Assembly: GCF_000160695.1 (NCBI RefSeq)
Contig: NZ_GG694008.1
Coordinates: 180,902 to 244,901 of the forward strand
Direction of reading: 5' to 3'
Source of the DNA: Centipeda flueggei ATCC 43531
GTDB taxonomy: Bacteria; Bacillota; Negativicutes; Selenomonadales; Selenomonadaceae
Length of the DNA stretch: 64,000 nucleotides
Part shown: positions 15,973 through 61,903 of the stretch, piece by piece
Numbering within the stretch: the stretch's first letter is position 1
Layout of the letters: each line of letters starts with the position of its first letter
Translations under genes and position numbers: made by a program
The notes under the pieces: generated by a model
The model's database searches: none
The model's input: the letters and a program-made list of their open reading frames with translations, nothing else
Told to the model about the DNA's origin: nothing

Positions 15973-16140
15973 TTAAGGAATCGCTGATAAAATGAAGTCT
16001 GTCAGATTGGTGAAAAATTTTTGTCCTGCCAAGGAAACAAACCGGACGCATAGCCAAAGCTATGTGGAGGATTTGTTGACACAGGCAGGGCGAAAAGGAT
16101 ACGCCAAGATGATGGGCTGAATTTATCAGCGATTCCTTAA
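15973..16140. repeat. Dispersed MITE-like repeat, copy A (complete)
   Basis: A 168-bp element with a perfect 19-bp terminal inverted repeat: TTAAGGAATCGCTGATAAA on the left (15973-15991) and its reverse complement at 16122-16140. The interior includes a small hairpin (CATAGC and GCTATG around CAAA) also found in copy B. It has no coding capacity of its own. It fills most of the gap between the radical SAM gene and the FkbM gene, which are read toward and away from it on the minus strand. Three relatives lie at 48876, 51386 and 61788. Confidence 0.85.
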
Positions 16141-28274: not shown

Positions 28275-29062
28275 CGTCCATAATTAATATACTCATTAAC
28301 ACCTTGATACATGAGTTTCCACGCTTTCCACATGCCGCCAACATTACGCGTATTTCTGCGATACCTCAATATAAATTGTACACACAGAAAATACGCGAAG
28401 CGTTGTGAAATTGCACAAAAAAGTGCGCCACGATCACGATAATATTTCTCTGTGTATCCATGAAACCATGTCGAACTCTCTTGCCGAACGGTCCCAATAC
28501 AGCAAGGCGACGCATACAGTCTAAGCCCGCGGCGCAAGCAATCCACAATAAAAATACTATCTTCCCCAGCTGAATATCTTGCACCCCCGCCAAACAAAAG
28601 CGAAAAGCAAAGATTTTTTTTCCTAAGGCTGTCCAGTCGAGCAGCTAAGCGAAATGCACCGTATCTAAAACAATTGTACCACCTGACACGATGAAAGTTT
28701 TTCTCTATAGCTTCAATTCGACTCTTATTTAGCGATGGCATATTAAAAAAAATAACATCGGCTTCCGGGTGGTCTTGGAAAGCCTTTTGAACCATTTCCG
28801 GATATCCATCTACATAGATGCAGTCATCATCTGAAAAAAGAATAATATCCGCATCCGCCCGCATTAGTGCTGTATTACGGCTTAATCCTACGCCTCGCTC
28901 TGAACAAGTATATATTTCTATCTTGTATTTACCATAAACCTCCTCATTAAACCGATATACATCACTTTGATTCACGAGAATCACATTGCTTTGAACATTC
29001 ATGTCCTTGCAAAAAGATAGGTCTTTCAAGTCCATTGCAGACAACAGCAGCTGTAATGTCAT
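28265..29062 (-). CDS. GT-A glycosyltransferase, family 2-like
   Basis: A 265-residue protein. The nucleotide-sugar half is reduced at the N-terminus compared with classic family 2, but RGVGLSRNTALMRADADI and LFSDDDCIYVDGYPEMV give the RNxA and DXD motifs. VIFFNMPSL and FGGGARYSAGEDSIF follow, as in transferases with the FGxG-AGED pattern. GGGGAACTTACT precedes the ATG. The C-terminal 70 residues are rich in aromatic and basic residues and may associate with the membrane. It overlaps the next gene, suggesting consecutive steps. Confidence 0.8.
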   Translation of the reverse strand: MTLQLLLSAMDLKDLSFCKDMNVQSNVILVNQSDVYRFNEEVYGKYKIEIYTCSERGVGLSRNTALMRADADIILFSDDDCIYVDGYPEMVQKAFQDHPEADVIFFNMPSLNKSRIEAIEKNFHRVRWYNCFRYGAFRLAARLDSLRKKNLCFSLLFGGGARYSAGEDSIFIVDCLRRGLRLYASPCCIGTVRQESSTWFHGYTEKYYRDRGALFCAISQRFAYFLCVQFILRYRRNTRNVGGMWKAWKLMYQGVNEYINYGRCL

Positions 29063-48879: not shown

Positions 48880-49048
48880 GGAGTCACTGATAAAAATGAA
48901 GTCCGTCGGACTGCGTAGATTCTTCATCCTGTCAAGGAGACAAACCGGACCCATAGCGGAGGCTATGCGGAGGATCCAGGGCACAGACAGGGCGGAAAAG
49001 ATGGACGAAGACGGCAGTGCTGAATTTATCCCTGCTTCCCCAGGATAA
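48876..49048. repeat. Dispersed MITE-like repeat, copy B (decayed ends)
   Basis: About 172 bp aligned with copy A: the interior has ATGAAGTCCGTCGGACTG, a CATAGC/GCTATG hairpin (with compensating loop changes), GGCACAGACAGGGCGGAAAA and a GCTGAATTTAT near the right end. The right inverted repeat is degenerate (CCCTGCTTCCCC in place of a clean CAGCGATTCC). It begins at the stop codon of the small membrane protein gene. Confidence 0.75.
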
Positions 49049-51388: not shown

Positions 51389-51450
51389 GGAAGCACTGAC
51401 AAATTCGGCACGGCCATCTGGCATACCTCATTTTATCAGCGATTCCCTAA
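51386..51450. repeat. Dispersed MITE-like repeat, copy C (short)
   Basis: A 65-bp remnant with both ends (TAAGGAAGCACTGACAAA on the left, TTTTATCAGCGATTCCCTAA on the right) but almost no interior. In the minus orientation it opens GATAAAATGAGGT, like copy A. It begins at the TAA stop of fumC. Confidence 0.7.
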
Positions 51451-61787: not shown

Positions 61788-61903
61788 CTAAGGAATCACT
61801 GATCCATTCAGCGCACGTCTCTTGACACATCTTTTTTTCCGCACTTCGGCGGACAAAAATCCACGCCAATTCGACGGACTTCCTTGTATCAGTGATTTCC
61901 TAG
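61788..61903. repeat. Dispersed MITE-like repeat, copy D (opposite orientation)
   Basis: Ends CTAAGGAATCACTGAT (61788-61803) and ATCAGTGATTTCCTAG (61888-61903) form a near-perfect inverted repeat. On the minus strand the interior shows GGAAGTCCGTCGAATTGG and GGATTTTTGTCC, and GCGCTGAATGGATCAGTGAT near the right end, matching copy A read forward. It lies between the pilus block and aroC. The rest of the gap to 61965 shows nothing. Confidence 0.75.

Follow-up and report, generated by a model that had tools for sequence, protein, structure and literature searches.

Introduction

Among the closest described counterparts of the element reported here are ERIC/IRU and Correia/NEMIS, whose ends and parents differ from its own. 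REP/RAYT repeats are shorter, do not have terminal inverted repeats and target duplication, and depend on a different transposase chemistry. ERIC/IRU and Correia/NEMIS resemble the present element in being intergenic MITEs of 100–200 bp with long stem-loop transcripts (PMC2229807); in contrast to these, the fold described here is strand-specific, rich in G-U pairs, broken by tandem G.A pairs and covarying throughout a class, and the ends are of at least two IS types. REP/RAYT repeats are likewise small, numerous, intergenic, palindromic and associated with a transposase (PMC2817692). Repeat stem-loops of Borrelia plasmids are also intergenic and contain compensated pairs, but their stems are short, and a link to MITEs is no more than suggested (PMC2674063). 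More generally, stable stem-loops are formed by MITE transcripts, with possible effects on mRNAs (PMC2229807, PMC10969869), and in stem-loop families folding is usually possible on either strand, except where G-U pairs are indispensable (PMC2267715).

The mobile elements to be considered as parents belong to the IS5 and IS427 groups. In the rows considered of one table, IS427-group elements are of 832–865 bp, mostly with 2-bp duplications and one with 4 bp, and IS5-group elements have 4-bp duplications, with one of 6 bp; both groups carry a DDE transposase, and the duplication lengths are much like those of the parents found here, which are of 1.25 kb and 802 bp (PMC3281130, Table 2). Beyond the 15–18 bp of the end, the body of the MITE has nothing in common with either parent. 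Other RNA motifs have been reported from Negativicutes, namely ldh2, and gltD in Selenomonadales and Veillonellales (PMC8632094); among the matches listed in a search of the open-access literature, none concerned Selenomonas MITEs or a covarying mobile RNA of the class. The element is, in our judgement, probably a MITE mobilised by IS5-family transposases, the body of which is a conserved structured RNA outside Rfam.

Copy A and its relatives

The window, i.e., the whole stretch of 64,000 nucleotides which was analysed, is part of the genome of Centipeda flueggei ATCC 43531 (2.16 Mb, 8 contigs). It contains the following features (positions in the window).

15973–15976, no strand: left target duplication TTAA, abutting copy A
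15977–16136, RNA strand plus: copy A, a mobile hairpin element of 160 nt, forming a hairpin over its whole length (R2, 149 bits)
15977–15991, plus: left terminal inverted repeat GGAATCGCTGATAAA, 15 bp, like the ends of IS5-family elements of sister genomes
16122–16136, minus: right terminal inverted repeat of copy A, 15 bp
16137–16140, no strand: right target duplication TTAA, abutting copy A
48880–49039, plus: copy B, diverged, full length, 160 nt (R2, 70.4 bits)
51389–51446, minus: copy C, deleted at the apex, 58 nt, still a hairpin (R2, 41.7 bits)
61792–61899, minus: copy D, deleted at the apex, 108 nt, still a hairpin (R2, 51.4 bits)

A perfect terminal inverted repeat of 19 bp had been proposed in the initial annotation. 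It is present at 15973–15991 and 16122–16140 and is not due to chance (0 in 100 shuffles); the true end, however, comprises 15 bp, to which the palindromic 4-bp target duplication TTAA is added. Similarly, the conserved internal hairpin noted there exists but is just the tip of the structure, since all 160 nt pair with each other on the plus strand, with a folding energy of -84.7 kcal/mol versus -54.9 on the minus strand. Three diverged relatives had been recognized, and these were found in both orientations, B on the plus and C and D on the minus strand; their sizes, given as 172, 65 and 116 bp, amount to 168, 66 and 116 bp when 8 bp of flanking target are included. The end pattern of copy A had 4 matches with up to 3 mismatches in the window, compared to 0 in 100 shuffles, and the ends GGAATCGCTGATAAA match those of IS5-family elements from sister genomes in 15/16 or 14/15 bases.

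Several other identities were considered and rejected. Copy A is spanned by an open reading frame of 42 codons, as judged by eye, and among own-genus copies 96 have an ATG following the left end, of which 34 remain open for at least 38 codons; 50 of the 96, however, reach a stop at codon 7. There is thus no conserved gene, in agreement with the earlier statement that no gene is present. An intrinsic terminator was dismissed, since no T-run was seen by eye after the stem of copy A. All five matches of copy A to Rfam 15 families were far below the gathering score, and at 20 loci with relatives Rfam matched just neighbouring tRNAs and a TPP riboswitch. Carriage by phages or plasmids was rejected, since blastn with copy A gave no match in phage and plasmid collections; in IMG/VR no contig was found for one exact core pattern.

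Copy number and mobility

Scoring of 40 out of 94 candidates gave at least 40 places in the own genome to which the element matches over most of its length, and the end pattern with up to 1 mismatch occurs 137 times, while the reversed pattern gave 0 matches. Genome searches scored 40 candidates (DNA) or 7–150 (RNA models) per genome, which makes the numbers of places lower bounds, and genome-wide counts of matches are perhaps inflated by matches on two strands to the same locus. Within the genus, matches were obtained in 14 of 14 genomes, two of these with one match each. In 1.264 Mb of sequence (400 kb from each of three species, plus the window) the merged hits number 142, including 103 that are close to full length; merging of overlapping hits reduced their number from 228, the profile being nearly palindromic and many copies being counted on both strands. 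The 400-kb stretches of two sister genomes, G005 and G011, contained 57 and 47 merged hits, respectively.

The element inserts with duplication of its target. The 4-bp flanks are identical in 64 of 125 genus copies, where 11.7 would be expected and the maximum in 1000 shuffles was 23; among the same copies, no excess of identity was found for flanks of 3 bp or 5 bp. The preferred target of own-genus elements is YTAR. The duplication of TA or TTAA that had been suggested is present in copy A, which lies between two TTAA, and a 4-bp duplication is general among the copies of the genus. Relatives retain empty sites. Between species, 27 pairs of copy and target could be assessed, of which 5 were occupied, 3 were classified as other and 19 were empty, although in at least 6 of the 19 (rows 3 twice, 88, 91, 92, 96) the flanks are inside another repeat and are unsafe as orthologues. 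Clean empty sites with a single target were kept in row 26 (TGAA) and row 2 (TTAG). In G015, a genome of another genus, 14 copies had one and the same score, and 9 of the 11 copies which were fetched are letter-identical at different sites; this is a recent burst.

An element in two genomes of genus g55 (L382 and L383, from G261 and G260) is identical including the near flanks, which is an orthologous, retained insertion. Family f33 includes a version with ends GACC(G/T)CAGGAGCTCAATG whose flanks are almost unchanged between two species (L376 and L377, from G336 and G332); this copy may be resident and non-mobile.

The stretches fetched from the genus also contain many copies of another intergenic repeat, about 100 bp long and including GCGGACAAGCACACGACCGCTTGCG, which often adjoins the elements or serves as their insertion site. 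It was located as follows.

G005 contig 1, near 28692–28793, 145488–145590 and 242744–242845 (L118–L137): repeat containing GCGGACAAGCACACGACCGCTTGCG
G011 contig 1, near 907646–907749: repeat containing GCGGACAAGCACACGACCGCTTGCG

Distribution and change of ends

With a covariance model built from 39 own copies (R1), matches were obtained in 64 of 151 genomes of the family and in 19 of 30 genera. The second model (R2) was based on 40 elements that represent many genera; it matched 131 of 380 class genomes and 38 of 102 genera. The E-values of R1 and R2 are rough because of short calibration. Among the genomes matched by the second model, 42 belong to 13 other families, and some of the matches in these are weak. 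From 20 of these 42 genomes 30 loci were taken, and in 29 of the loci 30 matches were inspected: 29 were of 154–164 nt and one was of 104 nt. Up to 123 matches were present in one out-of-family genome, some perhaps counted on both strands. A profile based on sequence only found all 30 out-of-family loci, 27 of them at E < 0.001, and at several of them (f8, f9, f10, f29, f33) it recognized likeness in the interior alone. Among the matches listed in a scan with the core motif, the records were from Selenomonas and Centipeda only.

The ends of the elements fall into the following main classes; further types were each met once or twice.

GGAAxCxCTGAT(A/T)AA: YTAR target
GGGCGTGTTGATTAA (GGGCGTG class): TA target; 2-bp duplication exact in 21 of 28, no exact one of 3 or 4 bp
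GGTGCTGGTGGTAAA: TA target
GGTGTGTCTGAAAACTAG: YTAR-like flanks

In the own genus, a copy at 289398–289557 of G005 contig 1 and three similar copies (rows 88, 91, 92, 96) have both ends changed together to a GGAATCACGRACGCA-like form, as if this subfamily were adapting to another transposase specificity.

IS elements with matching ends

A transposase elsewhere in the genome had been postulated in the initial annotation. In the 8 contigs of the own genome DDE_Tnp_1, the only transposase family sought there, had no match at E ≤ 0.01; IS with such ends do exist in 5 of 13 sister genomes. DDE_Tnp_1 was matched in 6 of the 14 genomes of the genus, which include these five. The elements in question (L051, L052, L054–L057) are of about 1.25 kb, with MITE-type ends on both sides (up to 2 mismatches), and the protein of L052 belongs to the IS5 family (NF033581, 309 bits, cut-off 140). 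YTAR is the target of the IS5 group. Matching ends and a YTAR target, which together were taken as the test for mobilisation by this group, were both found, and it is probably the matching IS that move the element. The interpretation as a MITE is upheld by the 4-bp target duplication, the dispersed copies, the empty sites in relatives and the IS5-family element with similar ends.

A second parent was found for the GGGCGTG end class. This element, L336:1348–2149, is of 802 bp, lies between TA sites and matches in 15 of 15 bases at both ends. It codes in two pieces for DUF4096 and DDE_Tnp_1; its best NCBIfam match, NF033580, was likewise obtained in two pieces, each alone below the cut-off for the whole protein. 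Homologous bodies are thus joined to the ends of two transposase types. The ends were shown to match IS of the types IS5_4 (4-bp YTAR) and IS5_3/IS427 (2-bp TA), which occur with the element in different genera.

Internal deletion of an IS is a common origin of MITEs, but it is not required of all. Similarity between MITE and IS was confined to the last 15–18 bp when 4 parental copies were compared with 3 elements, and beyond the ends just 10-bp matches at E 0.52 were obtained. The body is therefore not left over from the 1.25-kb IS, as the two have only the last 15–18 bp in common, and signs of an origin by internal deletion were found for neither of the two IS types compared.

Two further arrangements were noticed. 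The copy at L059:1363–1522 (G005 contig 9) immediately adjoins a truncated reading frame for an IS5-family transposase, and its insertion there was apparently into the IS that is likely to carry it. L342:5383–6751 (G132 contig 91) is a stretch of 1.37 kb between ends of the GGGCGTGTTGATTAA type, one of them with 1 mismatch, which contains an open reading frame of the Doc/Fic family (TIGR01550, 65 bits; PF02661), and no transposase reading frame of 90 codons or more is listed for it. This stretch is possibly a passenger element.

One-strand fold and covariation

The plus strand is the more stable one in 124 of 126 distinct copies, whose orientation was assigned by homology and not by energy, with means of -72.1 versus -46.8 kcal/mol. 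The 61 pairs across these copies comprised 6271 Watson-Crick, 866 G-U, 142 A-C and 280 other cells. Like transitions turn Watson-Crick pairs into G-U or A-C, but of the two G-U alone pairs in the folded RNA of this strand. Tandem GA/GA was found at the 5'-side columns 18, 29, 39, 58 and 69 in 95, 110, 119, 66 and 115 of the 126 copies, respectively, i.e., with spacings of 11, 10, 19 and 11. Conservation is 92.5% in the columns of the G.A loops, compared to 86.1% in inner paired columns and 72.6% in the remaining unpaired ones. GA/GA also makes up most of the symmetric 2x2 loops in the predicted folds, with 272 of 323 in the own genus and 72 of 106 in the class set. The minus strand gave a count of 0, which cannot serve as a control because TC/TC is necessarily what the complement shows. 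No helix runs without interruption for more than 16 bp in the 126 copies of the own genus, or for more than 18 bp in the 44 diverse elements. RNase III wants a duplex of about 20 bp or more.

Compensatory changes were evaluated in two sets. The family set, a plain alignment of 40 elements from the own and related genera, had 92.6% of its cells paired, whereas slid structures reached at most 46.0%, a comparison of percentages in which structures voted from the sequences' own folds are favoured. Of its 63 pairs, 48 had changed on both sides, a number which 0 of 500 shuffles reached, and across genera G-U exceeded A-C by 252 to 29. The class set contained 44 elements from many genera with a median pairwise identity of 54%; here 84.6% of the cells were paired, 62 of 66 pairs had changed on both sides in 570 cells (0 of 500 shuffles; at most 219 cells in slid structures), and G-U versus A-C was 271 to 69. 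Relatedness of the elements inflates the counts of covariation against shuffles, and the two controls partly offset each other's weakness.

With covariation beyond both the shuffled and the slid controls, and with G-U prevailing over A-C, the body is probably a structured RNA which is kept at the RNA level. Its interior, unrelated to the two IS types compared, was shown to retain the rod-like fold of one strand by compensatory change throughout the class. Two things had escaped the initial annotation: the IS did not give rise to the body, and the body is a strand-specific, covarying RNA fold of class-wide occurrence with differing ends.

Genomic setting and selection

Of the 103 near-full-length copies, 100 are intergenic, 2 are inside genes and 1 is at an edge, according to gene calls from codon usage. 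With respect to genes, 31 copies are oriented with and 30 against them, and 21 are between convergent and 18 between divergent gene pairs. With orientation to genes equal, the copies show no sign of a set position within host transcripts. Orientation to replication was 54/71 (p 0.15), and a fixed orientation to either transcription or replication was rejected on these figures. Both results look as though direction were of no consequence, which speaks against a role of the RNA. In the codirectional-gene classes the median distances were 59 and 80 bp to 3' ends and 171 and 130 bp to starts. Inspection by eye revealed no conserved internal promoter, and a motif like an extended -10 in the own-genus left end was discarded, since by eye it is not kept in the other end classes.

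The age of the changes was assessed with a tree of the 126 copies, which is rough and would be undermined by mosaic exchange between copies. On terminal branches, changes from Watson-Crick to G-U numbered 92, and those to A-C 78 (p 0.32); on internal branches these were 42 and 27 (p 0.09). Pair changes kept versus broken were 103/87 on internal and 172/193 on terminal branches. Pair states present in more than 10 copies were 14 G-U versus 2 A-C (p 0.004); with the cut of the spectrum test at 5 copies, Fisher's p was 0.084. Since recent mutations look near-neutral and old, shared variation is strongly biased towards G-U, resident copies would decay near-neutrally and selection would act on those lineages that go on to multiply, presumably on their folded plus-strand transcript.

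The element could also be an RNA of benefit to the host, i.e., a hairpin in 3' regions which controls stability or processing of the neighbouring mRNA in the manner of ERIC or Correia. The location of 100 of 103 copies between genes, and nearer to 3' ends than to starts where both genes have one direction, speaks for such a role, and transcripts of ERIC and Correia affect mRNAs (PMC2229807, PMC10969869). The effect of ERIC on mRNA depends, however, on orientation (PMC2229807), while no preference of orientation exists here, sites are mostly empty between species and recent mutations in resident copies are near-neutral; a host benefit is thus unlikely.

Proposed explanation

The fold may be viewed as the role-less palindromic filler of an ordinary MITE, with its pairing either a relic of the founder or a result of template switching between the arms. 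Many bacterial MITE transcripts do form long stem-loops (PMC2229807, PMC10969869), and both the neutral appearance of changes on terminal branches and the random orientation to genes would fit. Correction from arm to arm, however, should leave palindromes with perfect Watson-Crick pairing on either strand, which does not fit the 866 G-U versus 142 A-C cells; also, the G.A loop columns are conserved, lengths of segments and of the total are similar throughout the class, and 62 of 66 pairs covary. Covariation and the G-U bias across genera speak strongly against this reading, which we hold to be quite improbable.

DNA tolerates both G.T pairs and tandem G.A pairs, and movement of the IS5 family is taken to use double-stranded DNA. 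DNA parameters likewise made the plus strand the more stable one in 43 of 44 elements (-39.7 versus -31.5), with an asymmetry between strands, relative to total energy, of 8.3 in 39.7, which is like that with RNA parameters (21.0 in 81.6). A hairpin of single-stranded DNA, folded from one strand in replication, transformation or transfer as the substrate of movement, would agree with that asymmetry and with the tolerated mismatches, but it is very unlikely in view of target duplications and DDE transposases pointing to movement of the IS5 type, no significant bias to leading or lagging strand, and the missing match of copy A in phage or plasmid collections.

For the reading preferred here, that of a mobilised MITE with an RNA body, a chain of events may be outlined, which we consider possible but rather doubtful as a whole. 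A copy would be transcribed by read-through, and its plus transcript would fold into a rod of about 75 bp in which G-A pairs, about once per helical turn, keep the uninterrupted duplex short. Such a rod of short duplex segments with G.A pairs could escape cleavage of double-stranded RNA and could be bound by a protein, either the transposase or a host factor; in this way the bound rod would favour multiplication or tolerance of the element. The ends would be replaceable adaptors to whichever IS is active, and the RNA the part which persists.

A broader proposal, put forward tentatively, is that of a mobile RNA which is older than its vehicles, perhaps as old as the class Negativicutes, and which has swapped its DNA ends across successive transposases, its transcript being active in multiplication. 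If this were true, the RNA would be the selfish unit, with the IS-like ends as replaceable adaptors. MITEs are usually viewed as stripped IS, with folding as a by-product of the inverted repeats, whereas here the fold is conserved and the IS ends are changeable. The system permits a direct test of whether a gene-less DNA transposon can multiply better, or be better tolerated, owing to the structure of its transcript. It also adds an abundant RNA family which is absent from Rfam, and its elements make up a notable share of the intergenic space of oral Selenomonas.
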